The position numbers and the translations under genes were made by a program. DNA of 64,000 nucleotides. It comes from Azoarcus sp. GTDB lineage: Bacteria; Pseudomonadota; Gammaproteobacteria; Burkholderiales; Rhodocyclaceae. Of this stretch, positions 19,581-39,209 are shown piece by piece. Numbering within the stretch: position 1 is the stretch's first letter; the number at the start of each line of letters is the position of its first letter. The notes beneath the pieces were generated by a model. The model had not been told where the DNA came from, searched no databases, and worked only from the letters and a program-made list of their open reading frames with translations. Location of the stretch: the NCBI GenBank assembly GCA_031289095.1, contig JAITQD010000105.1:1-64000 (forward strand), in the 5' to 3' direction.

Positions 19581-19703
19581 TTGCGTAACCCTGTTGCATC
19601 CCGCATGAAGGACGCTTTTTCTCCTGTCTTGCCTTTCATGCCCTGGCGGGCGCTCTTTCCCGGAGCGCCTGCTTTTTTGCCCAATCTGCCGTATCCCTTC
19701 TCC

Positions 19704-20561: not shown

Positions 20562-20575
20562 AGAGAGAAACCGCG

Positions 20576-21154: not shown

Positions 21155-21169
21155 AACGGACGCCGCCGC

Positions 21170-22213
21170 ATGAAACGCTGCTCTGCTCCCGCCGGTTTTA
21201 CCCTGGCCGAACTGCTGGTGGTGGTGGCGATTCTTTCCGCCACCGCCTTGGCTGCGTTCGGGCTGGTGAGCGAGGATCGCGCCCAGGTGCGCGGCGACGA
21301 CACCCGCAACCGCCTCACAATTTTGCGCCGCGCCGTGCTCGGGCCGGAGACGCCGGCCTACGGCGGCGAATGGCGGCTTGCGGGCTACGTGGCGGACAAC
21401 GGACGGCTGCCAGAACACCTCCGCGACCTGCTCGATTCGGTGGATCATGCGCCGCAGGCGGGCGTGACGCCGCTGCTGACCGCCACGGTCGATGGTGCGT
21501 GCGTCCAGACGGGCACGGGCGGCAGCCTCGGCGATGTCGCCCGCGTTCTCAAGGGCCATCGCGGCAACTACCTTGGCGGATTGGCGTCCGACGGCAGGTT
21601 CCGCGACGGCTGGGGCAACGAAGGCGCGCCCGGCGAGGAGGACGCGCTCGATTTCGGCTGGCAGGTGGTCTTGGGTGTCGATGCCAGCCTGGAGATGACG
21701 AGCCTCGGGGCGGACAACGCGCCAGGCGAGACGACCGGCGCAGCGGCGGAAGCCGACCAGTCGATGAAGATCGCCGATGCGGACTGGCGGGTGGCGCTCG
21801 ACGGCTGGCAAGTCACGCTCCGAAACGCGGGCAGCGACCCGCTCGACGCCCACGACTTCGGCGTCAACGATTTCAGCCAGCTCGGTCTCGCCCTGCTGGT
21901 GTTCGAGAACACCGGCGCGGACGGACGCTGGCGGCAGTACCGGAGCCATTTCAATAGTTGCCCCGCCGGTACGAGTACGCCAACACTGGAAGCCGGGGAA
22001 AGTTGCGTGCTGAAGTTCGTTGCGGGCAGCGACGGCAAAATCGCCTGCGATGCGCCGGGCAACCGGATTGCAGCCCAAGCGCCGCTGGGCCGTCACGTGC
22101 TGACGCTCACCGCTGGCGGCGCGCTGCCGCCGCTCGTTCGCCGCGTCGTGGCGCAGGCCGATTTTTATCCCGGCGCGCATCCGCCCAATCTCGTCTGGGA
22201 ATTCCGGCCATGA
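21170..22213 (+). CDS. Pseudopilin (prepilin-type N-terminus)
   Basis: MKRCSAPAG|FTLAELLVVVAILSATALAAFG. Confidence 0.82.
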   Translation: MKRCSAPAGFTLAELLVVVAILSATALAAFGLVSEDRAQVRGDDTRNRLTILRRAVLGPETPAYGGEWRLAGYVADNGRLPEHLRDLLDSVDHAPQAGVTPLLTATVDGACVQTGTGGSLGDVARVLKGHRGNYLGGLASDGRFRDGWGNEGAPGEEDALDFGWQVVLGVDASLEMTSLGADNAPGETTGAAAEADQSMKIADADWRVALDGWQVTLRNAGSDPLDAHDFGVNDFSQLGLALLVFENTGADGRWRQYRSHFNSCPAGTSTPTLEAGESCVLKFVAGSDGKIACDAPGNRIAAQAPLGRHVLTLTAGGALPPLVRRVVAQADFYPGAHPPNLVWEFRP

Positions 22214-24021
22214 GCGCGGCGGACAACAAGGCGCTGACAAACGGCCCAACGGGCGGCGCTGCGGTCGCGCCGGTCATTGCCCTGCCGGCGCGTTTGCGGC
22301 AGGCGCTCGCGCCCTCGCTGCTCTTGCTCGTGTGGGATGTGGATCGCCTGTGCGCCGTGGCGGCGCGTCGCGTCGGCGGCAGCTGGCATTTTTCGGAAGA
22401 AGGCTCATCCCGCCTCGTCGATTTCGCGCCCGCGCTCGACGAGGCGCTCGCCCGCCTTGAAGCCGCTGGCGTCAAGCCGCCGCGCCGCTGCTATCTGGCC
22501 GCGCGCTTCATCGTTCCGGCGCGGGTGGATTTGCCCGTCGCCCCGGACAAGCCGCGCCCGCTCCTGCAAATGCGCGAACTGGCGCGCGCCGAGGTGGAAC
22601 CGGCGGTGGCGGAAGCCGGGGCGCTGTGGACAATAGGCGCGGTGCTCGCCGCGCGCGGCGCAATCAGTCCGGGCGAGCGCGAACGCATCGCGCTGGAACT
22701 GGCGGTGCGGCGCGAACAGTCGAACGAACCGACCTATTTCGGGCAAGTGGCCTGCGACCTTGGGCTGATCGGCAAGGAGGACGTGCAGGCGGCCCTGCGC
22801 GTGCAGGAAAAACTTCAAACGCTCGAATCCGCGCTCGCCTGCGGCTGGACGGGCGGCCAGGGCGAGACCGGCGAACCCCCGGTGTGGCTGGCTTCGGCCA
22901 CGGGGCTGACGCTGTGGAACCAGTTCGAGACCGCCTGCAAGCGCCGGGGGCTGAAACTCCTCGGCGGCTTGCCGCTCGCCTGGAGCCTGAGCGAACCCGC
23001 CGCCGCGCGCCGACCGACGGACGAACAGGAAGGCGACCGCGTTGCGCTGGAAATCCACGCCGAAGAAATCGTGGCGGTGCTGCGCCGGCGCGGGCGCGTC
23101 GTCTCCGCGCGCAGCGAAGGCCGCATGGAACGATCCCTGGCCTTCGACTGGTTGGCGCGCTTTATCGCCGACTGGCGCGCGGCGGGCATCGACGAACTGG
23201 CAATCGTCTGCCGCGAGGCGGATGACGAAATGGCCGGTGCGGCGCTGTGCGACGACTTTGCCCAACGCTGGGGCAAACCGCCGCGCCTTGTGGGCGCAGG
23301 CGAGGCCTGCCGCAGCCTGCTCGAATGCCTCGTCCGCCAATACAAATTGCGCGCTGCGACGCTGCCCGTCGTCCGCTTCGGCGAACCGCCCCGGCCCGTC
23401 TGGAAACAGGCCGGGGTCTGGCACATTCTCTGCCCGCTTCTCGTCGCCGCCGCCGCTACCGGGTTGGGCGTGCGGCAACGCATGGAGATTGATGCCATCC
23501 AGGCGCGTTTCGACCGCGCCGAACTGGACAGCAAACGCACGGCGAACGTCCGCCAGCAGGAAGCCAACGTCATCGGCTCGGCCAAACGCGACAAGGAAGA
23601 ACTCGACACCGCGCGCCAGCAGCTTGCCCGCCTCGCGCCCGAGGTCGACCGCCTGCAAGCCATTGAGGGCATGGCGAACCGCCTGCCGCAATTGCTGCAC
23701 GCGCTCGCCCGCAACATCGGCGACGACGTGGTGCTGGAAGTGGTGCGCAACAGCCGCTCGGGCGGCAACATCGGAGATGTGATGATCCTTGGCTGGACCA
23801 TCGAGCACAGCAGCGCGCAGGCGTTCGCGTCGCGGATGCAGGCGGCGCTCTCCAGCCTTGGCTACACGGTGGCGCAGACCGACGTACGCGCCGGGCCGGG
23901 GCGCGATGGCCGTCCCGGCTATTTCGTGTCGTTCTGGCTCATTCCGCATACCCCGGCGGAAGAACTCGGATCGCCGGAAGAAGCCGGGGCGGCGAATGAA
24001 GCGGGAGGCGGCGAACGATGA
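22210..24021 (+). CDS. GspL / PilM-PilN-like assembly platform protein with inserted helical module
   Basis: PilM/GspL-like N-terminal region; central FGQVACDLGLIGKEDVQAALRVQEKLQ; TM plus coiled coil and PilN-like C-terminus; ATGA overlap with upstream gene. Confidence 0.65.
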   Translation: MSAADNKALTNGPTGGAAVAPVIALPARLRQALAPSLLLLVWDVDRLCAVAARRVGGSWHFSEEGSSRLVDFAPALDEALARLEAAGVKPPRRCYLAARFIVPARVDLPVAPDKPRPLLQMRELARAEVEPAVAEAGALWTIGAVLAARGAISPGERERIALELAVRREQSNEPTYFGQVACDLGLIGKEDVQAALRVQEKLQTLESALACGWTGGQGETGEPPVWLASATGLTLWNQFETACKRRGLKLLGGLPLAWSLSEPAAARRPTDEQEGDRVALEIHAEEIVAVLRRRGRVVSARSEGRMERSLAFDWLARFIADWRAAGIDELAIVCREADDEMAGAALCDDFAQRWGKPPRLVGAGEACRSLLECLVRQYKLRAATLPVVRFGEPPRPVWKQAGVWHILCPLLVAAAATGLGVRQRMEIDAIQARFDRAELDSKRTANVRQQEANVIGSAKRDKEELDTARQQLARLAPEVDRLQAIEGMANRLPQLLHALARNIGDDVVLEVVRNSRSGGNIGDVMILGWTIEHSSAQAFASRMQAALSSLGYTVAQTDVRAGPGRDGRPGYFVSFWLIPHTPAEELGSPEEAGAANEAGGGER

Positions 24022-24728
24022 AGCCGAAGCAGTTCCCGCGCGCCGCCGCCGACCTCTGGAACCGTTTTTCCGCCGCCGAGCGCCACCAGATCGTCGGGGC
24101 GGTCTGCTTTCTGATGGCGCTCTGCTATGGCTTGCTGCTCTGGCAGCCGGGGCAGAAGAAGCTGGAAAACATGATCTACGCCGAGCAGAAGCAGGCCAAA
24201 CGCCTCAAGAGTTCGAGCGGCGGCGTGGACTTGCTCAAAAACTTCAACCTGACCGACGTCGAGACGATCCGCAAGGAAGCCAGCCAGGCGCGGGCCGCGC
24301 TCGCGGCGCTGGAGACGGAACGGGCGCGCCTCGTCGGGCGCTTTGTGCCGCTCGAAGACCTGGAAACGCTCCAGGCGCTGAAGTCGGATCTCACCCGCCT
24401 CGCCGAAGGCGGCGACATGGAAATTGCCGCCCTCGAACACATCTACCGCGACCCCCGCGACCGGGATCGCCCGCCGACGCAGGAACTCCTGAAAAGCGCG
24501 AGCGAGGCCAACCCGTACAAGCGCCCGCTCCTGCGCCTCAAGGCAAAGGCGAGCTACCGGGGACTGATGTCCTTCCTCGACGGGCTGGCGGCGCTGCCGC
24601 GCGTGGCCGCGCCGGTGTGGAGCGACATTTCGGTGCGCGCGGAACAGGGCGAGGCCCAGGGCGGCGCATTCGCCAGCCCCACCGTCGCGCGGCAATGGCT
24701 GGAAGTGGAGATTCATTTTGCCATCTGA
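24018..24728 (+). CDS. GspM / PilO-like protein
   Basis: N-terminal TM, coiled coil, C-terminal ferredoxin-like segment; operon position after the GspL-like gene. Confidence 0.65.
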   Translation: MKPKQFPRAAADLWNRFSAAERHQIVGAVCFLMALCYGLLLWQPGQKKLENMIYAEQKQAKRLKSSSGGVDLLKNFNLTDVETIRKEASQARAALAALETERARLVGRFVPLEDLETLQALKSDLTRLAEGGDMEIAALEHIYRDPRDRDRPPTQELLKSASEANPYKRPLLRLKAKASYRGLMSFLDGLAALPRVAAPVWSDISVRAEQGEAQGGAFASPTVARQWLEVEIHFAI

Positions 24729-25875
24729 AAAAACCTCGCCCGCCATCACCGACGACATCATGCCCACGGCGCGCCTGCCCGTGCTGGAAGCGTTTCGCCT
24801 GTTGCTCGAACAACTGCCAGTGAACGGCGTGTCCGACCTGCACCTGGGCGCGGGCCGCCACGCGCACTGGCGGGCGCACGGCGAACTGGCGGTTTGCGAC
24901 GACCGCGACTGGCGTGCCGAAGACCTGCATACCCTTGCCGAGCACCTGCTCGACCCCGCGCGCCGGCGCATGCTCGAAGAAACCGGTAGCGCCGACCTGG
25001 GCTATGCCTCGCCGGGCGGGCGCTTCCGGATCAACTTTTTCCGTTCGCTGGGGGCGCTGGCGCTCGTGGCGCGCCACCTGCCGGAACGCTTCGCCAGCCT
25101 CGCCGAACTCATGCTGCCGCTGGAGCTGAAAGACCTTGCCTATCTGCCGTCTGGCCTCGTCCTTGTCACGGGTGTCACCGGCAGCGGCAAAAGCACCACG
25201 CTCGCCACCCTGATCCACGAGATCAACGCCCACATGGCGCGCCACATCCTCACCATCGAAGACCCGGTGGAATTCGTGCATCGCCCCGTGAAAAGCTTGG
25301 TCAGCCATCGCGAACTTGGCGTCGACACGCCGGATTTTGCGCTCGCCGTGCGCGCCGCGATGCGGGAAGACCCGGACGTCATCCTCGTCGGCGAACTGCG
25401 CGACACCGAAACCATGCGCGCCGCGCTCACCGCCGCTGAAACGGGCCACCTCGTCTTTTCCACCCTGCACACCGCCGACGCGGTGGGGGCAACGGAACGC
25501 TTCATCGGCGCGTTTCCCGGCGAGGAACAGGATCTGGCGCGGCATCGACTCTCACTTGTCATGAAGGCGGTAGTGGCGCAGCAGCTTTTGCCGCGCGCCG
25601 ACAGGAAGGGGCGTGTTCCGGCAGTGGAAATCCTGCGCGGCACCACGGCGGTGGCGAACCTCGTCGCCTCGGGGCGCACGGCGCAGCTTTATTCGGCCAT
25701 GGAATCCGGCGCGGGCCTCGGCATGCAGACCTACGATCAATCGCTGGCGCGGCTGGCGCGCGACAAGCGGGTAGCCATCGAACTGGCGCGCCCGCTCACG
25801 CGCAACCCGGAAGGCTTCGACTGGCTGATGAAAAACGGCGGCCACGGCGCGGCAAGCGCAGGGGAGCGGCGATGA
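24718..25875 (+). CDS. PilT-like ATPase
   Basis: GVTGSGKSTTLATLIHEIN Walker A; AMREDPDVILVGELRDTETMRAALTAAETGHLVFSTLHT. Confidence 0.88.
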   Translation: MPSEKTSPAITDDIMPTARLPVLEAFRLLLEQLPVNGVSDLHLGAGRHAHWRAHGELAVCDDRDWRAEDLHTLAEHLLDPARRRMLEETGSADLGYASPGGRFRINFFRSLGALALVARHLPERFASLAELMLPLELKDLAYLPSGLVLVTGVTGSGKSTTLATLIHEINAHMARHILTIEDPVEFVHRPVKSLVSHRELGVDTPDFALAVRAAMREDPDVILVGELRDTETMRAALTAAETGHLVFSTLHTADAVGATERFIGAFPGEEQDLARHRLSLVMKAVVAQQLLPRADRKGRVPAVEILRGTTAVANLVASGRTAQLYSAMESGAGLGMQTYDQSLARLARDKRVAIELARPLTRNPEGFDWLMKNGGHGAASAGERR

Positions 25876-27479
25876 GCGCCCTTGCCGAATCCACCCTGAT
25901 CCAGGCCGGCTTGCAGGCGGGGCTGTTCGACAACGACACGCTGGCCCGCCTGCGTCCGGTAGCGCGAACGCGGCGGACGAGCCTCATGGAGACGCTCGCC
26001 ACCGAGTGCGCGTTGCCGCAGACGGCGTTCTATCTCGCGTTTGCCGAGATACGGGGCTTGCCCTACGCGCATCTCGCGCGCTGGACGGCGGACGAAATCC
26101 TGCTCGCCAAACTTCCCGCCGCGCTCCTGAAGCGTCATCCGATGGCGGTGTTGCGCGATCCGGCGAAGGTGGCGCATCTCGCGCTGGCAAACCCCGATGA
26201 CGCCCTGGGTGTCGAGACCGCGCGCCGGGTGGTCGGCGCGCTGCCGCTGGCGATTGCCGAACCGGAAGGACTCGCTACCCTGCTGCTGCGCCTGCGCGGC
26301 AAGGAAGCGAGCGCGAGCGGCGGGGTCGAAGACCCGGTGATGCTGTTCGAGCGCATCGTGCGCGAAGCCTTTTTGCGCCGCGCCTCCGACATCCATGTCG
26401 AGGCCATCGAGAACGGTGCGCGCGTGCGGCTACGGGTCGATGGCAGGCTGGAAATCCTCGGTGCGCCGCTCGTCAAGGAACTGGGCGAGGCGCTGATTTC
26501 ACGCATAAAAGTGCTCTCCGGCATGGACATCGCCGAAGCGCGCGCGCCGCAGGACGGCAGCCTTGTCTATCCGTCCATGGAAGGCGGCGCGGTGGAGATG
26601 CGCGTCGCCTCCGCGCCGGTGAAATTCGGCGAGCGGCTCACCTTGCGGGTGATGAAAAGCGACCCCAACCGCCGCAACCTCGACTCGCTGGGGCTGCCGG
26701 GCGCGATGACGGCGCGGCTGCGGCAGGCGCTCGGCCATCCGCACGGCATTGTGCTCGTCACCGGCCCCACCGGCAGCGGCAAGAGCACGACGCTCTATTG
26801 CGCCCTGCGCGAACTCGACGCCGACAGCTTCAACATCCTCACCGCCGAAGACCCCATCGAGCAAATCATCCCCGGCGTCTCGCAAGTGCAGGTCAACGCC
26901 AAGGTGGGCTTTGCCGACGCGCTGCGATCCTTCCTGCGGCACGACCCGGATGTGATTCTCGTGGGCGAAATCCGCGACCTCGACACCGCCGACGTGGCGC
27001 TGAAGGCGGCCACCACCGGCCACATGGTGCTCTCCACCCTGCACACCAACAGCGCCCCCGGCGCAATTACCCGGCTCACCGACCTCGGTTGCGAGCGTTT
27101 CATGCTCGGCGCAACCCTGCGCGGCATTCTCGCGCAGCGGCTGGTGCGCATGCTGTGCCCGCATTGCCGCCGGATGCGCGAGGCGACGCCGGAAGAACGC
27201 CGCCTGCTCGGGCTGGCGGAGACGGCGAGCGAGGGCGAGGCGGCGCAACTGTGGGACGCAACGGGCTGCCCGCGCTGCCTGGGTTCCGGCTACCGGGGGC
27301 GAATCGGGCTGTACGAGGCGCTGTGGGTGGATGGCGACACGGCTGTTGCGATTTCCGCCGGGGCGAACGAGCGCGACATTGCGGCGACGGCGCGGGACTA
27401 CTGGCGGCTCGCGGACGATGCGCGCGACAAGGTGCTCACCGGCATGACGAGCCTGAACGAAGCGAGGGCCTTTCTGTGA
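25872..27479 (+). CDS. GspE/PilB-like assembly ATPase
   Basis: GPTGSGKSTTLYCALRELD; DPDVILVGEIRDLDTADVALKAATTGHMVLSTLHTN; CPHC...CPRC zinc site; GRIGLYE. Confidence 0.92.
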   Translation: MSALAESTLIQAGLQAGLFDNDTLARLRPVARTRRTSLMETLATECALPQTAFYLAFAEIRGLPYAHLARWTADEILLAKLPAALLKRHPMAVLRDPAKVAHLALANPDDALGVETARRVVGALPLAIAEPEGLATLLLRLRGKEASASGGVEDPVMLFERIVREAFLRRASDIHVEAIENGARVRLRVDGRLEILGAPLVKELGEALISRIKVLSGMDIAEARAPQDGSLVYPSMEGGAVEMRVASAPVKFGERLTLRVMKSDPNRRNLDSLGLPGAMTARLRQALGHPHGIVLVTGPTGSGKSTTLYCALRELDADSFNILTAEDPIEQIIPGVSQVQVNAKVGFADALRSFLRHDPDVILVGEIRDLDTADVALKAATTGHMVLSTLHTNSAPGAITRLTDLGCERFMLGATLRGILAQRLVRMLCPHCRRMREATPEERRLLGLAETASEGEAAQLWDATGCPRCLGSGYRGRIGLYEALWVDGDTAVAISAGANERDIAATARDYWRLADDARDKVLTGMTSLNEARAFL

Positions 27480-28702
27480 GCGCCTACGCTTACCTTTGCC
27501 TCACCGCACAGGGCGCGGAGACGCGCGGCAACCTGGACGCACCGGACGAGGCCGCCGCGCGCCGGCTGTTGCGGGAACGGGGCCTGAAAATACTGGACAT
27601 TGCGGAGGGCGCTGCGGGCGGCGGCGCGCGGGCGGTGCTCGGGCAGATCGGGCATGCCCTCTCGCGTCTGCGCACCCTCGGCGACAACGACCGGGTGCTT
27701 TTGTTCCGGCAGATGCACTTGATGCTCAAGGCCGGACACACCCTGCTCGAAGCGCTGGCCGCCGCCTCGCGCCTTGCGCCGAAGGCGCGCCTCGCCGACA
27801 GCCTCGACCACATCGCCGCCCGCATCCAGCGCGGCAGCAGCCTGTCGGTGGCGTGCGCGGGCGAACCGGCGCTCTTCAACCGCCTGGCCCTGAAGCTGAT
27901 CGAGGCGGGTGAGGCGTCCGGCGAACTGGGTGTCGTGTTCGAGCGGCTGGCGGGGCTGATCGAGCGCCGCGCCGAAGTGCGGCGGCAGCTCATCAACGCG
28001 CTGGTATATCCGGGTGTTGTCCTGCTCGCCGCCATCGGGGTGATCTCCTTCCTGGTCATCACGGTGATCCCGCGTTTCGCCGTTTACCTGAACGGGCGCG
28101 GCAGGGCGGTGCCGTGGGCGGCGCAGACCATGATGGACGCCGCCGACTGGCTGGCCCGCTGGGGCGGCATGATCGGCGTCGGCATCGTGGCGGTCGCCGT
28201 GGGCCTGCCGCTGCTGCGGCGCTTGCCGGGGACGCGGCGGCTTATCGACCGCACCGTACTCGCCGTCCCGGTGCTGGGCGGCACGCTCGTCATGGCGGCG
28301 ATGGCGCAGGTGACGTGGATTTTCGGCGTACTCGTCAAAAGCCGTCTCACGGTGCTGGAGTCCCTGCGCATCTGCGCGCAGGTGGCTGGCAACGCCGCGT
28401 TCGCCGGGGCGTTCGCGCGTGCGGCGGACGACGTGCTGGCGGGCAAAAGCCTTGCCGTCGCCCTCGACCGCCCGGTTTTGCCCAGCCTTGTGCAGCACAT
28501 GGCCGCCGTCGGCGAAAAAAGCGGACAGGTGGATACGGTCATGGAATCCCTTGGGACGCATTACCAGAAAGTGCTGGACGCCCGCGTGAAGCTGCTCGCT
28601 TCCATGATCGAACCCGCGCTCACCGTGCTGATCGGCGCGGTGGTGGGCTTTGTCTATTACGCCTTTTTCCAGGCGATGTTGTCCGTCTCTACCGGAGCAT
28701 GA
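27476..28702 (+). CDS. GspF/PilC-like inner-membrane platform protein (GTG start)
   Basis: LLRERGLKILDI; FRQMHLMLKAGHTLLEAL; LIEAGEASGELGVVFERLA; three TM segments. Confidence 0.9.
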   Translation: MSAYAYLCLTAQGAETRGNLDAPDEAAARRLLRERGLKILDIAEGAAGGGARAVLGQIGHALSRLRTLGDNDRVLLFRQMHLMLKAGHTLLEALAAASRLAPKARLADSLDHIAARIQRGSSLSVACAGEPALFNRLALKLIEAGEASGELGVVFERLAGLIERRAEVRRQLINALVYPGVVLLAAIGVISFLVITVIPRFAVYLNGRGRAVPWAAQTMMDAADWLARWGGMIGVGIVAVAVGLPLLRRLPGTRRLIDRTVLAVPVLGGTLVMAAMAQVTWIFGVLVKSRLTVLESLRICAQVAGNAAFAGAFARAADDVLAGKSLAVALDRPVLPSLVQHMAAVGEKSGQVDTVMESLGTHYQKVLDARVKLLASMIEPALTVLIGAVVGFVYYAFFQAMLSVSTGA

Positions 28703-29229
28703 ATGTCATGAACATGAAGCGGTTTTGCCTGCTCGCCGCCGTCCTGCCGGTGCTCGCCGCCCGGCCCGCGCTGGGCGTCGACCTGCCGCCGGAGACGCCG
28801 GAGGCTATCCGGAGCGGGCTGGAGACCATCGACAAGTACCGCGCCGAAGTGGAAAAACGCACCGGCAACGCGCCGCTTGCGCCGCTGACCGTTGCGCCGC
28901 CACGGACTTCGATCACGCCCGATGCGCCCGCGCGCGACGCCAGCGCGCTCCCTGAGCGCGACCCCTTCGAGGTGTCGCCCCGCCTGCGCGAAGGCGGCGG
29001 GCGCGACGCCCGCCTCGGGCTGGCACTCAATCAGGCGCTCCGCCTGCGCGCCGTGGTGCGCACGCCGGAAGGCGGCATCGCCAAGATCGAATCGGGCAAG
29101 GATTCCCTGGTTGTGCGCGACGGCGACGAACTCGACGTCAACGGCATCCGCTACACGGTGAAGGTGGAAGCGGACGGTCTGGTGCTGCGCGGCGCAGGCG
29201 CGCCGCAATACAAAATGCAAATCAGGTAG
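28699..29229 (+). CDS. PilP/GspC-like periplasmic protein
   Basis: Signal peptide; ERDPFEVSPRLRE; C-terminal LRAVVRTPEGGIAKI...VRDGDELDVNGIRYTVKVEADGLVL; located just before the secretin. Confidence 0.65.
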   Translation: MNVMNMKRFCLLAAVLPVLAARPALGVDLPPETPEAIRSGLETIDKYRAEVEKRTGNAPLAPLTVAPPRTSITPDAPARDASALPERDPFEVSPRLREGGGRDARLGLALNQALRLRAVVRTPEGGIAKIESGKDSLVVRDGDELDVNGIRYTVKVEADGLVLRGAGAPQYKMQIR

Positions 29230-29232
29230 ACC

Positions 29233-31242
29233 ATGAAATTTTCGAGAAAAGCGTCCGATGGAAGACCCTGGCCGCGCGCGCTGGCGTTGGCGCTGGCGCT
29301 GGCCTTGCCGGGCGCGCTTTCCCACGCCGCGCCGCCCGCTGGCAAAACCATGCCGGGCGACGTCTACCTCAAGCAGATCACGCTCGACGAGGCGGCGCAG
29401 TTCATCTCCCAGGTGGGCAACGCCAGCATCGTGGTGACGTCCAGCGTCGCCAACAAGGTGGTGTCGCTCTACCTGCGCGACGCCACCGTCGAAGGCATGG
29501 TGAAGAACCTTGCCCGCGCCGCCGGGGTCTGGTATCGCCACGACGCCCAGACCAACGCCTACATCCTGATGGACGGCAAGGAATACCGGCAGGACATCGC
29601 CATCACCCGCGACGAGATCACCCGCAATTTCGTGCTGCGCCACCACAACGTCGTCAGCGTCGCCAATGCGGTTGCGGCGCTGTTCGGGGAACGGGTCAAC
29701 CTTGTCGAGCCGGTGGAGGAAATGCCGCCGCTCGAAATGGGCAGCACCACCCGCACGCAGAGCGGCACGGGCGGCAGCCGGAGCAGCAGCGGTAGCGGCA
29801 ACGATTTCGGCGGCAACCGTGGCGCAGGCACGGGCGGCAGCTTCGGCAACAGCAGCGGACGTGGCACGAGCATGAGCGCCGAAGGCGCGGTGACGCGCCG
29901 CAGCGGCGGCAGCCGGGGCGGCAACCGGACGGACGCACGCGAGGAACTGGCGAAAGTCTCGCAGGCCGGATTGGAGGCCTCGCTCGACATCGACAGCGGC
30001 GAGACGGAAACCGTCGAAGCCTCCCGGCTGCAACAGGCGGTGTCGACGCAGGGGCCACCCATCCACCTGACCTACAACAAGATGCACAACCTGTTGCTGG
30101 TGCGCACCAGCGACGAGACAGCTTTGCAGGACATCGAAAAACTGGTGCAGGACATGGATCGCCCGCCGCGCCAGGTGTTGCTGGAGATGCGCATTGTCGA
30201 AGTGGAACTGGGCGGCGATTTCCGCTCGGTGTTCGACATCGGCTTCGCCGACAGCTCATCGAGCGGGCCGCGCGGGCTTGGCCATGGCAGCCCGATCGAC
30301 GGCGCTTACACGGACGCGGCAGGCAATACCCGCTACCCGGGCAACGCCGCCTCGCTCGGCAACTTCAGCCCCGAACAAGCCGCGACCGCTGTCTGGCAAC
30401 TGGTCAACAACAGCCTGCGCATGCGGCTGCAACTCCTGGAGAGCGAAAACCGGGTCAACGTGCTCGCCACCCCGATGCTGGTCGCTTCCAACAACCAGCC
30501 TGCGCGGCTTTTCATCGGCGACGAGCAGATTCTGATTACCGGGGCGGAAAGCGACAGCACCACCGGCACCACCGGCGCAACCAACACCACGATCACGGTG
30601 GAGACGGAGCGGCGCAACGTCGGGCAGACGCTCATCATTTTGCCGCGCATCAACGCCGACCGCACGGTGACGCTCACCATCGACCAGGACAATTCCCGCA
30701 TCAACGCGGGCGGCGCGCACATGCCGTTGCCGCTGCCCAATGGCGAGACCTTCGATTACCCGATCGACACGGTGAACACCGCCAACCTGCAAGTCACCGC
30801 GCACGCGCGCGACGGCTTGACCGTGGCGGTGGGCGGCATGATTACCCAGCGCATCACCGATGCGGAAGAAAAGGTGCCGGTGCTCGGCGACATTCCCATA
30901 CTCGGCCATCTTTTCAAGAAAACCGTGCGCAGCAACTCGCGCAAGCAGATCGTCCTGCTCATCACCCCGCACGTGCTGGAGACGCCCGAGGAAAGCGACG
31001 CGCTTGCGCGCACCCGTGAAAACGAGGCGCGGCGGCTCGACGAGAGCGGACGCAACGAAGCGGGGAACAAGGCCGTGCAGGGCGACAGCATCTTCCAGAA
31101 CGCTGCGCCTGCCGCCCCCGCCGCGCTGCCGGAGGCTGGCGCCATGCGCGCTCCGGACGCGCCGCCGACCAACGAGCTACGCCCGGCGCCACTGCCTGCT
31201 CCTCCGCGTCATCCGTTCGAGCGCGCCATGGAGCTGCCGTGA
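29233..31242 (+). CDS. Secretin (GspD/PilQ/MshL-like)
   Basis: QVLLEMRIVEVELGGDF; LESENRVNVLATPMLVASNNQPARLFIG; VGGMITQRITDAEEKVPVLGDIPILGHLFKK; RKQIVLLITPHVLE. Confidence 0.94.
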   Translation: MKFSRKASDGRPWPRALALALALALPGALSHAAPPAGKTMPGDVYLKQITLDEAAQFISQVGNASIVVTSSVANKVVSLYLRDATVEGMVKNLARAAGVWYRHDAQTNAYILMDGKEYRQDIAITRDEITRNFVLRHHNVVSVANAVAALFGERVNLVEPVEEMPPLEMGSTTRTQSGTGGSRSSSGSGNDFGGNRGAGTGGSFGNSSGRGTSMSAEGAVTRRSGGSRGGNRTDAREELAKVSQAGLEASLDIDSGETETVEASRLQQAVSTQGPPIHLTYNKMHNLLLVRTSDETALQDIEKLVQDMDRPPRQVLLEMRIVEVELGGDFRSVFDIGFADSSSSGPRGLGHGSPIDGAYTDAAGNTRYPGNAASLGNFSPEQAATAVWQLVNNSLRMRLQLLESENRVNVLATPMLVASNNQPARLFIGDEQILITGAESDSTTGTTGATNTTITVETERRNVGQTLIILPRINADRTVTLTIDQDNSRINAGGAHMPLPLPNGETFDYPIDTVNTANLQVTAHARDGLTVAVGGMITQRITDAEEKVPVLGDIPILGHLFKKTVRSNSRKQIVLLITPHVLETPEESDALARTRENEARRLDESGRNEAGNKAVQGDSIFQNAAPAAPAALPEAGAMRAPDAPPTNELRPAPLPAPPRHPFERAMELP

Positions 31243-31285: not shown

Positions 31286-32239
31286 ATGAACGCCATCACC
31301 GCCACCCTCCGCGAAGCCGCCCCGTTCGAGGCGGCTGCCGCGCTCCAGCGCGCCACGCAAAGCGTGGGCGGCATCCTGCTCGGCAAGGACGAGGCCGTGC
31401 GCCTGTCGTGCGCCTGCCTCGTCGCGGGTGGCCACCTGCTGATCGAAGACCTGCCGGGCATGGGCAAGACGGTGCTCGCGCAGGCGCTTGCCCGCGTCGC
31501 CGGGCTGCAATTCAACCGCGTGCAGTTCACCAGCGACATGCTGCCCGGCGACTTGACCGGCGCGGCGGTGTTCAGCCGCGAGCGGGAAGAATTCGTTTTC
31601 CATCCCGGCCCGGTGTTCGCACAGGTGCTGCTCGCCGACGAGATCAACCGCGCCTCGCCCAAGACGCAATCGGCCCTGCTCGAAGCAATGGAGGAACGGC
31701 AGGTGACGAACGACGGGGTGAGCCGGCCTTTGCCAAAACCTTTTTTTGTCATCGCCACCCAGAACCCGGTCGACCAGTCTTCCACCAATCCGCTGCCGGA
31801 AGCACAGCTCGACCGCTTTCTGATGCGCCTGTCGCTCGGCTATCCGGACATGGCGGCGGAACTGGAAATCCTGCGCGGCGAGGATCGCCGCACCCTGCTC
31901 AAACGGGTTGAACCGGCGCTGAACGCCGACCTGCTCGCCGAGCTACAGGGACAAGCCCGCGCTGTCCACGCCGCCGAACCGCTGCTCGCTTACGTGCGGG
32001 CGCTCGCCGAACACACCCGCCACGGCGCGGGCCTGGTCTATGGCCTGTCGCCGCGCGGTGCGCAGGCGCTCCTGGCTGCGGCGCGCGCCTGGGCCCTGCT
32101 CGACGGACGCGACCACGTATTGCCCGGCGACGTACAGGCGGTGTTTCCCGCCGTCGCCGGGCATCGCCTCGGACTCGGCGACGTGCGCGAGGCGGCGCAG
32201 GCGGCGCACGAACTGCTCGTCGCGGTGCCAATGCCATGA
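31286..32239 (+). CDS. MoxR-family AAA+ ATPase
   Basis: IEDLPGMGKTVLAQALAR; LLADEINRASPKTQSALLEAMEERQVT; FVIATQNPVDQ. Confidence 0.93.
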   Translation: MNAITATLREAAPFEAAAALQRATQSVGGILLGKDEAVRLSCACLVAGGHLLIEDLPGMGKTVLAQALARVAGLQFNRVQFTSDMLPGDLTGAAVFSREREEFVFHPGPVFAQVLLADEINRASPKTQSALLEAMEERQVTNDGVSRPLPKPFFVIATQNPVDQSSTNPLPEAQLDRFLMRLSLGYPDMAAELEILRGEDRRTLLKRVEPALNADLLAELQGQARAVHAAEPLLAYVRALAEHTRHGAGLVYGLSPRGAQALLAAARAWALLDGRDHVLPGDVQAVFPAVAGHRLGLGDVREAAQAAHELLVAVPMP

Positions 32240-33201
32240 GCATTGAAACGAGGGGCCCGGAAACGCAGCCGAACGGCGAAAGCAGCGCGACAGCGGCCCC
32301 GGCGCGCATCGTGCTCCTTCCCACCACCGCCGGTACCGTCTGGCTGCTGGCGGCGCTGGCGCTGCTGGCGGTGGCGATCAATTACGGCAACAACCTCGTG
32401 TTCGCGCTCGCCTTTCTGATCCTGTCGGTGTGGCTGATGGCGGCGTGGCAATGCCGCCGCAACCTCGTCGGGCTGGAATGGCTGCCCGCCCCGCCGCCGA
32501 TGGCGTTCGCGGGGGAGGCGCTGTGCGTTGCGGGTCAGGTGCGCGACATGGCCGGACGGCGGCGCGATCCGGTTGCGCTGGGTGCAGGCAGGGGGCGGAA
32601 CCACCGTCGGGGCGTCGCCGTCGGTTCGGCCCGGCGCATGGGCGACGCGCTGGCGCTGGAACTGTCGTTGCCCGCACCCGAGCGTGGTCGCCGGACGCTC
32701 GGCGGCCTGCACCTGCTGGCGCTGCACCCGCTCGGTCTGTGGCGGGCGCGGCGGGCGCTGCCTGCGCTGACGGCGCTCGTCTATCCCCATCCGGCGGGCG
32801 ATCTGCCGCTGCCCGGCAACGCACCCAGACCAGCGCATTGCCGTCAGGAAGCGGGCGATTTTCAGGGGGTCGCGCCTTATGCGCCGGGCGACCCCTTGCG
32901 CCGGGTCAACTGGCGTGTTTACGCGCGCCGGGGCGAACCGGCGGTCAATCGCTACGACGGCGGCGCGGGCGGCCCGGCGCTGTGGCTGGACGCTTCCGCC
33001 TGCGACGGCGGTGTGGAAGCGCGCCTGTCGCAGTTGTGCCAATGGGTTGTCGCCGCCGAACGGCAGGGACGCGAATACGGCCTGCGTCCGGGTAACGGAC
33101 AGGATCGCGCCCCAGGCCGGGGAATGGCCCACTACCGGGCATGCCTGGCGCGGCTGGCGCTGTATGGAGAAACACCGGCGCAGGCCACCGCCGGGTCATG
33201 A
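32236..33201 (+). CDS. DUF58 domain protein
   Basis: Two N-terminal TMs; DFQGVAPYAPGDPLRRVNWRVYARRGEPAVNRY. Confidence 0.85.
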   Translation: MSIETRGPETQPNGESSATAAPARIVLLPTTAGTVWLLAALALLAVAINYGNNLVFALAFLILSVWLMAAWQCRRNLVGLEWLPAPPPMAFAGEALCVAGQVRDMAGRRRDPVALGAGRGRNHRRGVAVGSARRMGDALALELSLPAPERGRRTLGGLHLLALHPLGLWRARRALPALTALVYPHPAGDLPLPGNAPRPAHCRQEAGDFQGVAPYAPGDPLRRVNWRVYARRGEPAVNRYDGGAGGPALWLDASACDGGVEARLSQLCQWVVAAERQGREYGLRPGNGQDRAPGRGMAHYRACLARLALYGETPAQATAGS

Positions 33202-33213
33202 GGAGACGGCATC

Positions 33214-33750
33214 ATGTCCGCTGAAACCGCATCGAAACCCGCCTCGCCCGAAGGACTGCTGGTGTGGCGCACACGGGAATCTTCCCGCCACCTGCTGATG
33301 GCGATGGTCTATAGCCTCGGCATCGCCACGGCCAGCGGCATCGTGCTGATGCTGCCGCTGGGCAATGGTCATCTCACCCTGGTCATGCTGGTGGCGCATC
33401 TCGTTTCCGGGGCGCTGGCGCTGCTGTTCTTTGTGCCCTTCCTGTTCATCCACCTGCGCGACGGCAAGGAGCCGCTCCTCAACCTGCTGATGCCCTGGCG
33501 GATGTTGCACCGGCTCTACCGGGGGGAATCCCTTCATCACCGCATCCTCGGCTACCTCCTCACCGGCTGTGTGCTGCTCGTGATGGGAACGGGGCTGGCG
33601 ATTGCCGCGCCCGCCGTTCTCTATCTCTCCGGGCAGCCCACGGTGATGCCGTTCGGCACAGCGGCGGCGCTGCTGCGGGTGCATCTCACTTTTTCGGCGC
33701 TGCTGGTCTTTTTTGTGGCGCTGCATTTCCCGAAAAGGTCGTTGTCATGA
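33214..33750 (+). CDS. Four-TM, His-rich membrane protein, cytochrome b561-like
   Basis: Hydrophobic segments with spaced His (HLVSG..FIHLRDG, HHRILGYLL, RVHLTFSALLVFFVALHF); overlaps the pentaheme cytochrome gene. Confidence 0.6.
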   Translation: MSAETASKPASPEGLLVWRTRESSRHLLMAMVYSLGIATASGIVLMLPLGNGHLTLVMLVAHLVSGALALLFFVPFLFIHLRDGKEPLLNLLMPWRMLHRLYRGESLHHRILGYLLTGCVLLVMGTGLAIAAPAVLYLSGQPTVMPFGTAAALLRVHLTFSALLVFFVALHFPKRSLS

Positions 33751-35369
33751 AATTTCCAGCGCATTTTTTCGCCCTGCCGCTCGTCCGCTTCCTGCTCGCG
33801 CTCGCCGCCACGCTGCTCCTGGCGCTGGCGCTTGATGCGCTGTTGCCGCCGCCGCCCAGTCTTGCCGTGGAGGTGGAAAAAGATCTGCCGCTTTACTCGA
33901 AACCGTTCGGCAAGGAACAGTCGCCTTTCTATCCCGCCGAACTGTCGACGCCGGACGGCAAGCTGCTCAACTGGCGCGCCGTGCCGGGGGCGTTGAGCTG
34001 TGGCGAGTGCCACCGCAAGGAGACGCTGGAATGGGCGACGTCGATGCACGCCATCTCCGACCGTGACCTGATCTACGACAGCACGGTGCTGGAAAACACC
34101 CTGGCCAGCCAATCCGGCAAGGCGGCGCACGGGGTGGAAAAAGGGCGCTGGTGCGAGTCCTGCCACAACCCGCTCGGCACCCTGGCCGGGGCGGTCACGC
34201 CCGCCAACAGTGTGCAGGAAACTGCGGCGATGGAAGAAGGCACCGCCTGCGTCGCTTGCCACGCCGTCAACCATGCCGAACCGCTGGCGGGCAACGGCGC
34301 GCTGGAAATCGACATCAATGGCATTTTCCGCTACGCGCACCCGGCGCTCCTCGCCGCCGCGCCCGCGCGGCACTCCCGCGACATGCGCGCGCGCCGCCTC
34401 AAACCATTGATGGGCGACAGCGCCCTGTGCGGGGCCTGCCACACGGAAATCCGCCCCACCTCGGTCAATGGCGCAACGCCGCCGATGAACCTTCAGGACA
34501 CCTATGACGAATGGCGGCATTCGCCTTACGCCAAGGCGGGCATCCAGTGTCAGGACTGCCACATGGCCGCCGATCCGGCGGGGTTCGTCGCGGCGCTCAA
34601 GCGCGGCGAGCGCCAGAAGAAAACGGTGTCGCACCGCTTTGCGGGCAACAACTACCTGCTCTCCAACACCGCCTTGCCTTCCGGTCTGCTTTTGGCCCTG
34701 CGCGGCGGTTCGCCGCCGGGACTCAACCGCCTGTACGACCGCGCCACTTTCACCAAGGCATTGGGCGAAACGAACGACGCCGTGGTGGCGCTGCTGCGCG
34801 AAGCCGCCGAATTGCGGGTGGAGCGCGCCGCCGCCACGCCGGGAGACGGGGGGGCGTTCAACCTGTCGGTGTCGGTGACGAACGCCGGTGCGGGCCACGC
34901 GCTGCCGACCGGCCCGCTCGACCAGCGTTATCTGTGGCTCGAAGTAGAGGCGAAGGACGCCGCAGGCAACACCGTGTTCCATCAGGGCAAGTTCGGGGCG
35001 AAAGGCGAGGAAGACCCCGATGCCGTGCGCTGGATGAAGGAAGTGCGGGACATCGACGGCAACCCCGAACGCCGCCACCTGCTGTTCGACGCCTTCACGC
35101 TCCATTACACGCGCAAGCCGATTCCGCCGCGCCAGACCGACACGGTAAACATCCGCATCGCGCCGCCGCCGGGCGCGGCAGAACCGGCGACGGTCGACGT
35201 CCGCCTCTGGTACCGGATCGCCGTGCAGGACATTCTCAAGAACATCGAAAACCAGGGGCTGGGCAAGGTCGACGTCGTCCTGCCGCCGCTGCTCCTGAAG
35301 GAAGTGCGCCACGAGGTGGCGCCGCGTGCGCTGTCCGCCCATGACGCCGCGCGGGGAGGAAAATCATGA
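33747..35369 (+). CDS. Pentaheme c-type cytochrome
   Basis: Five CXXCH motifs: CGECH, CESCH, CVACH, CGACH, CQDCH; N-terminal signal/anchor. Confidence 0.9.
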   Translation: MKFPAHFFALPLVRFLLALAATLLLALALDALLPPPPSLAVEVEKDLPLYSKPFGKEQSPFYPAELSTPDGKLLNWRAVPGALSCGECHRKETLEWATSMHAISDRDLIYDSTVLENTLASQSGKAAHGVEKGRWCESCHNPLGTLAGAVTPANSVQETAAMEEGTACVACHAVNHAEPLAGNGALEIDINGIFRYAHPALLAAAPARHSRDMRARRLKPLMGDSALCGACHTEIRPTSVNGATPPMNLQDTYDEWRHSPYAKAGIQCQDCHMAADPAGFVAALKRGERQKKTVSHRFAGNNYLLSNTALPSGLLLALRGGSPPGLNRLYDRATFTKALGETNDAVVALLREAAELRVERAAATPGDGGAFNLSVSVTNAGAGHALPTGPLDQRYLWLEVEAKDAAGNTVFHQGKFGAKGEEDPDAVRWMKEVRDIDGNPERRHLLFDAFTLHYTRKPIPPRQTDTVNIRIAPPPGAAEPATVDVRLWYRIAVQDILKNIENQGLGKVDVVLPPLLLKEVRHEVAPRALSAHDAARGGKS

Positions 35370-35767
35370 GCCGCCCATCGCAAACCCCTGCTCGTCCGTC
35401 GCGTTTTCCGAGTCTGGCGGAAATCCTGGCGCTCATCTTGCCCGTAGCGGCGGCCATCGCCATGGGGGCATATCTGCTCGCCGGGCGGCCCAAGGGCGAG
35501 GACGCGAACTACGCCCGCGCCCGCGACGACATCCGCGCCCTGCGCAGCGTGCTGTTGTCCGGCGCAGCGCTGCCCGATACCGCCTCGGGCCTGGCCCGCC
35601 TCGTCGAAGGCGGCCTGATTCCCTTTTTGCCGAAAGACCCGTGGGGACGGCCCTACCAGTACCGCAATCCGGGCACGGAATACGCATGGGAACTGTTTTC
35701 GCTCGGCCCCGACGGGATGGAGAGCAAGGACGACGTGATCGCCTGGAACCTTTACGGCGGGCGATGA
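35366..35767 (+). CDS. GspG-like protein without canonical prepilin cleavage motif
   Basis: C-term LPKDPWGRPYQYRNPGTEYAWELFSLGPDGMESKDDVIAWNL; N-term TM RFPSLAEILALILPVAAAIAMGAYLL lacks GFxxxE. Confidence 0.75.
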   Translation: MSRPSQTPARPSRFPSLAEILALILPVAAAIAMGAYLLAGRPKGEDANYARARDDIRALRSVLLSGAALPDTASGLARLVEGGLIPFLPKDPWGRPYQYRNPGTEYAWELFSLGPDGMESKDDVIAWNLYGGR

Positions 35768-38001
35768 TGGCCGCGATTCCCGCTTTTTCCGTCTTTTCCG
35801 CGCGGCTGCCGCGTTCGCCTGTCGTCGTCGCGGACGTGTCCGATTGCGTGCGCTGGAGTTTCGCCCTGCTGGCGCTGGCCCTGGCGAGCCACGCGCCCGC
35901 GTTGCCCCTCGCGGCCTGGCCAGCGCTTGCGCTCGCCCTGTGCAGCCGGTGGCCGTCGTGGCGCGGCATACCGGCCCTGCGTCTGCTGCTGCTCGCGGGC
36001 GCGCTTGCCGCCGCTGGGATAGTTTTCGGATGGATGGACAACCGCACGCTGCGGCTGGCGCTGCTCCTTGTGCTGGCGTTGAAGTGGGCCGAGGCGCGCA
36101 GTGCGCGGGAATTCGCCCTACTCGCGGGCGGGGCGCTGATCGCGGGCGCGCTCGGTCTGCTGCAATGGGGCGATTGGGTGGGGCTGGCGCTGGTCGTGTG
36201 TCTGCCGCTCCTCGCGCTGGCGACGCTGGAAGCGGCTGCGAGCGCGGAGATGCACGGCACACGGGCGGAAACGCCGTCGCCGCGCCACGCCGCGCGGCGG
36301 CGAATTGCTGCAAGCCTGGGCGCGCGTCTGGGCGCGAACCTGGGCCGCCTCGCGCTGGCCCTGCCGTTCGCGGCGGCGCTGTTCCTGTTTTTTCCGCGCA
36401 TTCCGGGGCCGCTGTGGGACATCGGCCTGACCTTCGGTTTGCCGATGTCGCTGTCGCTGGAAAAATCCGATCAGGGGCTGGGGGTTTCCACTCGCCTGAA
36501 ACCCGGACAGGGACAGACCCAGACAGGCATCGCCGAAAGCGCCCCGGTGCTGCTGGCCGAATTCGACAACTGGGTGCCGCCGACGAGCCTGCTCTACTGG
36601 CGCGGCCCGGTCTATTACGATTTCGACGGGAGCGAATGGCGGCTCGACCCGGCCTACGAAGCGGGACAGGGGCGGGCGCTGATGCGGCGCGGCTGGACGA
36701 AAAGCAGCGCGTTTGCTGACACGCTGGCGAAGAAGGTGCAGGAAATCACCTACACGGTTCGTCTCACGCCGCACAAACATCTGTGGCTGTACGGGCTCGA
36801 TTTGCCCGCCGCGCTCGCCGCCGAATCGTTTGTCAGCGCCGACTGGCAGGTGCTCTCGCATCGTCCGGTGACGGCGGAGACGAGCTACCGTTTGAAATCC
36901 TGGCTGGACTGGGAAGCGGGCGGCGCGCTCGACGACGACACGCGCCGCCGCGCCCTGGCGCTGCCCGCGACGGGCAATCCCCGCCTGCGCGCGCTCGGCG
37001 CGGAACTGGCCGCGCAGCCGCCGGACGGACGCATCGCCGCCGCGCTCGCCGCGCTGGCGCGGGAAGGCTACAAGGTGCGCGACCGCTTCACGTTCCGGGA
37101 AGGGCCGGATGCGCTCGACGAATTCTGGTTTGACCGCCGCGAGGGCAACGCCGACCTGTACGCCGGTACTTTCGTCTTTTTGATGCGCGCCGCCGGTCTG
37201 CCAGCGCGCCTCGTCACCGGCTACCGGGGCGGCAAGCTGATGGCGCTGACCGATTACGTCATCGTCAAGAAAAGCCACGCCCACGCCTGGGCGGAAGTCT
37301 GGGACGAGGCGCGCGGCTGGCGGCGCATCGACCCCGTCGACCTGATTGCGCCGGAACGCTTCGCCGACGCGCGCCGGGTGCAGGCAGCGCCGTCCGGGGC
37401 AGCGAAACCCGCTGCGCCGCGCCGTCCGCAGGAAGCTGCGCAGCGGCAGGCGGCGGATGCCGGGATGCGGCAAACGTCGCCCGCCACGGCGTCGACCACC
37501 GCCGTGGCGGCGGCGGGCTGGCGCGCCCCCGGCGAGGAGAGCTTTTTTGCGCGCTGGGTTTTCCGGCTGGACGGTGAAACGCAAAAGGCGCTGCTGGCCG
37601 CGCTGGGCAGCGGCTTTGGCGACGAGCCGGACGGCGCAAAGCGCAGCGGCTTTGCCTGGGCCTGGCTGCTGGCGGGCGCGGCGTTTTCCGGCGCGCTGGC
37701 GTTTGCCGCAGTCGGGTTCGTCGTCTGGCGGCGCGAAACGCGCCGTCTGCCGCCGCCGCAACGGCACTGGAACCGTCTCGCCCGGCTGCTCGCGCGGCGG
37801 GGTTTTCGCCGGGAAGTGTGGGAATGTCCGGCGAATTTCGCACGCCGGGTCGCCGCCGCCCGTCCGCTGTGGGCCACCGCTGTGACCGCGCTGGCAAACG
37901 CCTACACCGACTGGCGCTACGCCTTGGGCCGCGCCGACGCGCCCCGCCGCGTCGCAGCCTGCGCCCGCAAGCTCCACAACCTGATTCTGGCTGACCGTTG
38001 A
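35764..38001 (+). CDS. TgpA-like (DUF3488/transglutaminase-like) membrane protein
   Basis: N-terminal multi-TM; transglutaminase core FVFLMRAAGLPARLVTGYRGG...SHAHAWAEVWDEARGWRRIDP; C-terminal TM. Confidence 0.88.
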   Translation: MMAAIPAFSVFSARLPRSPVVVADVSDCVRWSFALLALALASHAPALPLAAWPALALALCSRWPSWRGIPALRLLLLAGALAAAGIVFGWMDNRTLRLALLLVLALKWAEARSAREFALLAGGALIAGALGLLQWGDWVGLALVVCLPLLALATLEAAASAEMHGTRAETPSPRHAARRRIAASLGARLGANLGRLALALPFAAALFLFFPRIPGPLWDIGLTFGLPMSLSLEKSDQGLGVSTRLKPGQGQTQTGIAESAPVLLAEFDNWVPPTSLLYWRGPVYYDFDGSEWRLDPAYEAGQGRALMRRGWTKSSAFADTLAKKVQEITYTVRLTPHKHLWLYGLDLPAALAAESFVSADWQVLSHRPVTAETSYRLKSWLDWEAGGALDDDTRRRALALPATGNPRLRALGAELAAQPPDGRIAAALAALAREGYKVRDRFTFREGPDALDEFWFDRREGNADLYAGTFVFLMRAAGLPARLVTGYRGGKLMALTDYVIVKKSHAHAWAEVWDEARGWRRIDPVDLIAPERFADARRVQAAPSGAAKPAAPRRPQEAAQRQAADAGMRQTSPATASTTAVAAAGWRAPGEESFFARWVFRLDGETQKALLAALGSGFGDEPDGAKRSGFAWAWLLAGAAFSGALAFAAVGFVVWRRETRRLPPPQRHWNRLARLLARRGFRREVWECPANFARRVAAARPLWATAVTALANAYTDWRYALGRADAPRRVAACARKLHNLILADR

Positions 38002-38009
38002 GGATTCGC

Positions 38010-39209
38010 ATGATCACCCGGTTTTTGAAGCACATCGCCCCCATCGTCCTGTCCGTCCTGCTTGCCGTCGCCGCCGCGCCATTGCGCGCCGCACCGGACG
38101 GGAACGCGATCATTGCCGACATTCTCCAGCGTGGCGAAGCCGCCGTCGCGGCCTACGACGAAGCCGCGCCGCTGGCGAGCGCGAGCGAATTTTCGGCGCT
38201 CTACTTCGGGCGTTTCGAGGCGCTGGAACTGGATCTGGGCCTGCGCGACGCCGGGTTGAAAAATGAACTGGAAGTGCTTTTCGGCGCGTTGAACGGCAAC
38301 GCCATGCGCGGCGTACCGCGCGCGCGGCTGGAGAGCACATGGCGCGACCTGAAAACGAAGCTCGTCGAGGCGCAGCAACATTACGGCGCGGACGGGCAGG
38401 GCGTCGCGGGCGAGCGCGGCGCTTTTCTCAAGGCCTTCCTCATTTTGCTGCGCGAAGGCGCGGAAGCCTTGCTGGTAGTCGGCGCGCTCGCGGCCTACCT
38501 GCGCCGTGCCGGCGCGGCGGACAAGGTATGGGTGCTGCACGTTGGTGTTGCGGTGGCGATTCCCTTGTCCATCCTGACCGGCTGGGCCATCAATGGTTTG
38601 CTCCAGGGCATCGGCGCGCCGCTCGCGGTGGTGGAAGGCGTCACACTGCTTGCCGCCAGCGCCATGCTGTTTTACGTGAGTTGCTGGCTATTCGCCAAAC
38701 GCGAGGCCCGGCGCTGGGAAGACTGGATTGCCCGCCAGATGGAAACCGCCTTGGGTGCGGGGTCGCTCTGGGCGCTCGGCGCGACGGCCTGCCTTGCGGT
38801 GTACCGGGAAGGCGCGGAAACCGTGCTTTTCTATCAGGCGCTTGCCGCCGGTGCGCCCGGGCAGGAAGGCGCGCTGCATGCCGGGTTGGCGCTTGCCGCC
38901 GTCGCGCTTGTCGCGGCCTATTTTCTGATGCGTCATGCCGCGCTCCGCCTGCCGTTCGGCCTCTTTTTTGGTGCGACCTCCGCTTTGCTCTATGGTCTTG
39001 CCGTCGTTTTTCTTGGGCAAGCCATTGTCGAACTCCAGGCCGCAGGCTGGATTGCCAGCATTTATCTGCCGGGATTTCCGCAAGTCGATTGGCTTGGCAT
39101 TGCGCCGAGTGCGCAAAGCCTGGGCGCGCAGACGTTGCTGCTGCTCCTGCCTCTCGCGTGGCTTGCGCTTCGCCGCACGCCCGTACCGAAAGCCGCGACG
39201 GCGCGCTGA
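38010..39209 (+). CDS. FTR1-family high-affinity iron permease with periplasmic N-terminal domain
   Basis: LLREGAEALLVVGAL and VYREGAETVLFYQAL (REGAE motifs); signal peptide. Confidence 0.85.
   Translation: MITRFLKHIAPIVLSVLLAVAAAPLRAAPDGNAIIADILQRGEAAVAAYDEAAPLASASEFSALYFGRFEALELDLGLRDAGLKNELEVLFGALNGNAMRGVPRARLESTWRDLKTKLVEAQQHYGADGQGVAGERGAFLKAFLILLREGAEALLVVGALAAYLRRAGAADKVWVLHVGVAVAIPLSILTGWAINGLLQGIGAPLAVVEGVTLLAASAMLFYVSCWLFAKREARRWEDWIARQMETALGAGSLWALGATACLAVYREGAETVLFYQALAAGAPGQEGALHAGLALAAVALVAAYFLMRHAALRLPFGLFFGATSALLYGLAVVFLGQAIVELQAAGWIASIYLPGFPQVDWLGIAPSAQSLGAQTLLLLLPLAWLALRRTPVPKAATAR

Follow-up and report, generated by a model that had tools for sequence, protein, structure and literature searches.

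A cytB-cytC cytochrome gene pair linked to an FTR1-family iron permease in Azoarcus and candidate for its redox partner

The window (the whole 64,000-nucleotide stretch of Azoarcus sp. DNA analyzed here) contains two overlapping genes that encode a four-transmembrane (TM) protein, cytB, and a pentaheme c-type cytochrome, cytC. On balance, the pair probably supplies the electron-transfer part of an iron-uptake cassette of the FTR1 type, most likely serving as an O2-independent ferroxidase that passes electrons to quinone. The direct results of the analysis are the gene order, its linkage across phyla, its co-inheritance, the placement of the linked FTR1 proteins in a single clade, the invariant histidine sets of the two cytochromes, and their folds.

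The gene run and its iron permease

The genes of the run, and the secretin gene that precedes it, are as follows.

29233..31242, + strand: GspD secretin of a T2SS/T4P-like system, in the genus confined to cassette-bearing species (context)
31286..32239, + strand: MoxR AAA ATPase (island context)
32236..33201, + strand: DUF58-like protein (island context)
33214..33750, + strand: cytB, a 178-aa four-TM protein and predicted diheme b-type cytochrome, DUF4405/Ni-Fe-hydrogenase cytochrome b-like, with four invariant His
33747..35369, + strand: cytC, a 540-aa pentaheme c-type cytochrome of the PHC/ExtKL/c552 family, with five CXXCH motifs
35366..35767, + strand: GspG-like protein with a T2SSG domain and a degenerate prepilin cleavage motif, directly 3' of cytC
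35764..38001, + strand: TgpA-family transmembrane transglutaminase-like protein
38010..39209, + strand: FTR1/EfeU-family iron permease with both REXXE motifs (REGAE, REGAE)

The cytB and cytC ORFs are both present and overlap by 4 bp, as described in the initial annotation. They are flanked by the DUF58 gene on one side and by the GspG-like gene, followed by tgpA, on the other. The genes for MoxR, DUF58, cytB, cytC, the GspG-like protein, TgpA, and FTR1 form one run of overlapping or near-abutting genes, in which FTR1 is located two genes beyond cytC; a TTG start for FTR1 at 37998 would create a further 4-bp overlap with TgpA. The initial annotation regarded the redox pair as out of place in a MoxR-DUF58-TgpA set. 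That view overlooked the probable partner encoded at the end of the same run: the product of 38010..39209 matches PF03239 at 1.8e-21 and its two REGAE motifs are intact, so the cluster at this locus includes an FTR1 permease with REXXE motifs. FTR1/FtrC proteins take Fe2+, and oxidation is thought to be coupled to transport (PMC11966278, PMC9174327).

Genes for P19 (FtrA), the FtrB cupredoxin, and FtrD were not found beside FTR1 in the window cluster, and imelysin was not found anywhere in the genome. The cassette is therefore not accompanied by a dedicated periplasmic iron-binding protein of the P19, EfeO, or imelysin type, and the P19 of this genome sits in a separate FTR1 cluster on contig C60 (2734-7458). 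There, genes for P19, a porin-like protein, an FtrB-like cupredoxin, a second FTR1, and an FtrD-like NapH occur in that order (the middle and the last of these names were read from translations and are not profile matches). This arrangement corresponds to the FtrAPBCD type mentioned for Rubrivivax (PMC11966278), which makes the window cassette a second, differently partnered FTR1 system.

Both cytochrome genes recur in other members of the genus; cytC was identified in 12 of 22 genomes, with 70-85% identity in 11 of the 21 other species. Orthologs of FTR1 (67-83% identity) and TgpA (60-78%) are present in those 12 genomes and in none of the 10 that lack cytC (Fisher p = 1.5e-6); nine of these 10 carry a distant TgpA paralog (35-40%) and one a distant FTR1. 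The cognate GspD (59-80%) accompanies them in 11 cassette genomes; it was not found in the twelfth (G003), which has its locus on a short contig, nor in any of the 10 others. The order GspE-GspF-GspC-GspD-MoxR-DUF58-cytB-cytC-GspG-TgpA-FTR1 is held wherever contigs from the genus are long enough. The joint presence or absence of these genes indicates that the T2SS/MoxR-DUF58-TgpA island is gained or lost as one block.

Properties of the two cytochromes

The predicted structure of cytB (pLDDT 87.5) consists of four long helices (residues 12-45, 52-84, 108-138, and 149-171). The initial annotation drew attention to regularly spaced His residues in this protein; His residues are indeed numerous, but only H62, H80, H157, and H171 are invariant in 20 relatives with identities down to 17%. 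H62 and H80 are located in TM2 and H157 and H171 in TM4, at matching heights, and cytB is predicted from this pattern to be a diheme b-type cytochrome. The four-helix b-type layout with four central His is shared with DUF4405/FezC proteins, the Ni-Fe hydrogenase cytochrome b (HyaC), and FdnI. A comparison with the FdnI profile gave E 9e-4, and a Foldseek alignment with HyaC gave TMq 0.58 with an E-value that was not significant. The DUF4405 (PF14358) assignment is weak: 8 of the 20 aligned relatives match at E<0.1 (best 3e-4), whereas the window cytB itself falls below detection; an ortholog in Shinella is annotated as DUF4405. Heme b binding has been demonstrated for DUF4405 and FezC, and their relatives act in ferrosomes (PMC11334425).

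cytC is a member of the pentaheme PHC/ExtKL/c552 family; the PHC family is known from cable bacteria and Geobacter (PMC11976967). All five CXXCH motifs listed in the initial annotation were located (CGECH at residue 85, CESCH at 136, CVACH at 168, CGACH at 228, and CQDCH at 268), compared to a chance expectation of 0.006 and a maximum of one in 20,000 composition shuffles. The AlphaFold model (pLDDT 87, pTM 0.88) was used for the Foldseek comparison that the initial annotation had proposed, and it matched 5ze8, the pentaheme c552 of Thermochromatium tepidum (E 7e-16). Profile searches also matched 5ze8 (1.6e-14), together with the selenoprotein MccSep (7e-8). The C-terminal part forms an Ig-like β-sandwich that carries a GAGHALPTG motif, and cytC thus has the combination by which the PHC/ExtKL family is recognized: five CXXCH motifs and a C-terminal Ig-like domain in a c552/ExtKL fold. 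These features, including a GHxxPTG-type motif, are shared with ExtKL, Gsu2801, T. tepidum c552, and MccSep. Unlike those proteins, cytC has a putative N-terminal membrane anchor, the subfamily-specific residues H209 and H444, cytB and FTR1 as partners, and Pro at the Sec position. The anchor assignment refers to a helix at residues 9-32 with no obvious cleavage site, which probably remains uncleaved in the inner membrane. A selenoprotein identity for cytC was rejected, given that the Sec position of MccSep aligns with Pro and the ORF is free of internal in-frame stops.

Ten His residues of cytC are invariant in the cytB-linked subfamily, five within the CXXCH motifs and five outside them (H101, H209, H296, H384, and H444). 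H101, H296, and H384 are common to all or nearly all distant relatives; H209 and H444 are conserved in the cytB-linked subfamily but occur in few or none of the distant ones. The five invariant His outside the motifs equal the hemes in number, which gives no indication of an open catalytic heme, and cytC would be an electron-transfer protein with five bis-His hemes rather than an open-heme enzyme. Assignment to the NrfA, c554, or HAO catalytic multiheme enzymes was rejected on the same residue count and for want of a family-level match; the matches to NrfA were only short ones in CXXCH regions. A nitrite/hydroxylamine-type detoxification enzyme was rejected likewise, the similarity being short and at the level of CXXCH motifs and no spare unligated heme being suggested. 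The initial annotation had named a housekeeping detoxification enzyme with no conserved linkage to MoxR/T2SS genes as the outcome that would count against it; the family search did not lead to one, and the linkage is conserved in Rhodocyclales.

Kinship in sequence and fold with ExtKL, MccSep, c552, and the pentaheme PHC cytochromes of cable bacteria (PMC11976967) could also be taken to mean that cytC is an ExtKL/MccSep-like catalytic multiheme enzyme that receives electrons from cytB and reduces nitrite, selenite, sulfite, or a similar substrate, or a component of nanowires or extracellular electron transfer. We consider this very improbable: besides the five invariant non-CXXCH His, the score against the NCBIfam ExtKL model is 58.8 bits, under the 250-bit cut-off, cytC appears to be anchored in the inner membrane, and the linkage to FTR1 would be left unexplained. 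The analysis supports the earlier proposal insofar as a b-type-like membrane protein and a pentaheme c-type protein appear to form an electron-transfer module between membrane and periplasm.

Linkage and phylogeny beyond the genus

A cytochrome profile scan of 84,980 species genomes was followed by neighbor profiling. All relatives of cytC with at least 36% identity adjoin cytB (a fragment that starts inside cytC, L090, cannot be judged). FTR1 is encoded within ~6 kb of cytC in 13 of the 15 such close relatives with enough contig, compared to 1 of 60 distant relatives with at most 31% identity (Fisher 1e-11). The cytB-cytC-FTR1 trio was found in Rhodocyclales, Alphaproteobacteria, Nitratiruptor, and Chloroflexota, and bearers outside Rhodocyclales mostly also have imelysin, a periplasmic iron protein. 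In context A, the order is imelysin-cytB-cytC-FTR1; it occurs in Alphaproteobacteria, including Shinella plasmids, and in Nitratiruptor. The Nitratiruptor locus has a ferritin gene directly upstream and a flavodoxin gene two genes downstream, and nos genes lie beside the cassette in Shinella. Context Ac (FTR1-imelysin-cytB-cytC) is that of Chloroflexota, with one case split over contigs and FTR1 and imelysin at the contig edge. Context B is the T2SS/MoxR island of Zoogloeaceae, Dechloromonas, Sulfuricella, and Thauera. Context C, from two gammaproteobacterial metagenome-assembled genomes (MAGs) with FTR1 elsewhere in the genome, combines cytB-cytC-GspG with a ferredoxin-NAD(P)H reductase and MoxR-DUF58-TgpA. 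In these two loci (L085, 7384-17564; L089, 7381-16416), cytB-cytC-GspG is followed by the 2Fe-2S/FAD/NAD reductase and a Band-7 protein, with MoxR-DUF58-TgpA adjoining and FTR1 not nearby. A remoter version, context P, was seen in Aeromonas caviae and a Hyphomicrobiales genome and comprises a 4-TM protein, a cytC fused to a β-propeller, and FTR1. Here (A. caviae KAM479 L017, 4888-9150; L119, 5799-10096), the 4-TM gene (L017) or a counterpart of it lies ahead of, or is fused to, the β-propeller-cytochrome gene, and genes for FTR1 and an FAD amine-oxidase-like protein follow.

The FTR1 proteins of contexts A, Ac, and B group together on a single branch (SH-aLRT 99), which unites β-, α-, ε-, and Chloroflexota lineages and is separate from 31 FTR1 proteins of the window's own family; context P is its next neighbor (85). 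In the cytC tree, contexts A, B, Ac, and C are clades and P is their sister group, all apart from unlinked PHC cytochromes (97-100). The groups of the cytC tree are those of the FTR1 tree, and the cytB tree, although weaker, is compatible with that of cytC. These were quick trees with SH-aLRT support only, and long branches were flagged by the program.

The MoxR-DUF58-TgpA setting emphasized in the initial annotation is conserved in Rhodocyclales, but the T2SS/MoxR set did not hold up as the functional partner: such genes were not found in the flanks of the alphaproteobacterial, Campylobacterota, and Chloroflexota pairs, where FTR1 and imelysin are present instead. This distribution, and an FTR1 phylogeny that tracks cytC, make it improbable that the pair mainly serves the T2SS/MoxR-DUF58-TgpA envelope system, in a redox step of secretion or of secreted-protein maturation, with FTR1 as a bystander. 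An envelope role would nevertheless fit the Rhodocyclales, in which cognate GspD, TgpA, and the cytochromes share the same genomes. It would also fit two Rhodocyclales loci (L082 and L084) in which cytB-cytC-GspG is intact while its position relative to MoxR/DUF58 varies, indicating that the trio travels as a unit, as well as the context C loci.

Proposed function and other genes of the window

In the reading we favor, membrane-anchored cytC would exchange electrons with periplasmic iron at the mouth of FTR1, and cytB would link cytC to the quinone pool. Oxidation is the most likely direction: cytC would act as a ferroxidase, taking an electron from Fe2+, the resulting Fe3+ would pass to the FTR1 REXXE sites, and from cytC the electron would run through cytB to quinone. 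What we infer in this scheme is the ligation of the hemes, the contact with quinone, the role of iron as redox substrate, and the direction of electron flow. cytC and cytB would then stand in for the O2-, peroxide-, and copper-dependent oxidants of Fet3-Ftr1, EfeUOB, and FtrABCD. The complete version, a ferroxidase-permease coupled to the respiratory chain in which pentaheme cytC oxidizes Fe2+, diheme cytB reduces quinone, and FTR1 uptake is freed from O2, H2O2, and copper, is advanced more tentatively. Bearers that include nos-adjacent Shinella, Nitratiruptor, and Chloroflexota MAGs fit, but do not prove, a need for an O2-free oxidant.

The main rival of the ferroxidase reading is a ferric reductase. 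Electrons would flow in the opposite direction, from quinol through cytB and cytC to Fe3+, freeing iron in the periplasm from complexes or imelysin for FTR1 or another importer to take up; this is the direction given in the initial annotation, here with iron as the acceptor. The solved structure nearest to cytC, that of the pentaheme c552, has a title that calls the cytochrome low-potential (Chen et al. 2019, cited in PMC11976967). A low potential favors this rival, in that it suits iron reduction at least as well as oxidation. DUF4405/FezC relatives have been discussed as membrane iron-redox cytochromes (PMC11334425), and clusters combining flavinylation with iron transporters have been interpreted as assimilatory iron reductases (PMC8238504). 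Characterized FTR1 systems, however, work with Fe2+ and require an oxidant (PMC11966278, PMC9174327), and the REXXE motifs of the window FTR1 are intact; we therefore regard a reductase as rather unlikely, if clearly the strongest competitor. Other observations that sit less well with the ferroxidase reading are the retention of cytB-cytC-GspG without a nearby FTR1 in the two gammaproteobacterial loci, the lack of imelysin in the window genome, and the weak DUF4405 assignment of cytB.

The cassette resembles FtrABCD/FtrAPBCD (Bordetella, Brucella, and Rubrivivax) and P19-cFtr1 in that periplasmic redox partners and an electron carrier in the membrane accompany an FTR1-family permease. It differs from FtrABCD in that pentaheme c-type and four-TM b-type proteins replace adjoining P19, FtrB cupredoxin, and FtrD-like proteins, and in that its FTR1 belongs to another branch. 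An FTR1-type permease is likewise common to EfeUOB/EfeUOB-M and Fet3-Ftr1, and imelysin (M75) accompanies the cassette in Alphaproteobacteria, Nitratiruptor, and Chloroflexota, but the redox partner is a multiheme cytochrome with cytB, in place of an adjoining DyP peroxidase or multicopper oxidase. A search of the open-access literature, with subscription papers outside its scope, found no paper joining FTR1 with DUF4405 or multiheme c-type cytochromes in one system. FTR1 uptake itself is known; a heme-based redox partner for it appears to be new, as the search turned up no published account of one. By the prevailing view, FTR1 permeases depend on an adjacent oxidant, and how they work without O2 is a standing question. 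A heme partner wired to the membrane electron pool, conserved in at least three phyla and sharing a genome with a conventional FtrAPBCD system, would make that question testable. If the ferroxidase reading is true, high-affinity iron uptake could run in anaerobes and denitrifiers, and one branch of the PHC cytochromes, a family with few assigned roles, would gain a function.

The upstream T2SS/T4P-like system (18345-31242) includes several N_methyl pseudopilins, a PilM/N-like fusion, a second PilT-like ATPase, GspE, GspF, and GspD. The GspG-like protein 3' of cytC keeps its T2SSG C-terminal domain; throughout Rhodocyclales it has a degenerate prepilin cleavage motif (for example, PSLAEI, PSLPVL, PGLLVT), whereas gammaproteobacterial orthologs retain a canonical G-[M/I]SLIE leader; judged by its leader, the window protein may be anchored and uncleaved. 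A ferric-reductase-like FAD/NAD transmembrane protein (PF01794) is encoded upstream of the secretion cluster (16630-17961) and is widespread in the genus; it was rejected as part of the cassette because its orthologs are found whether or not the cassette is present, and on other contigs. Positions 14813-15667 encode a secreted protein with a PEP-CTERM sorting signal (PF07589).
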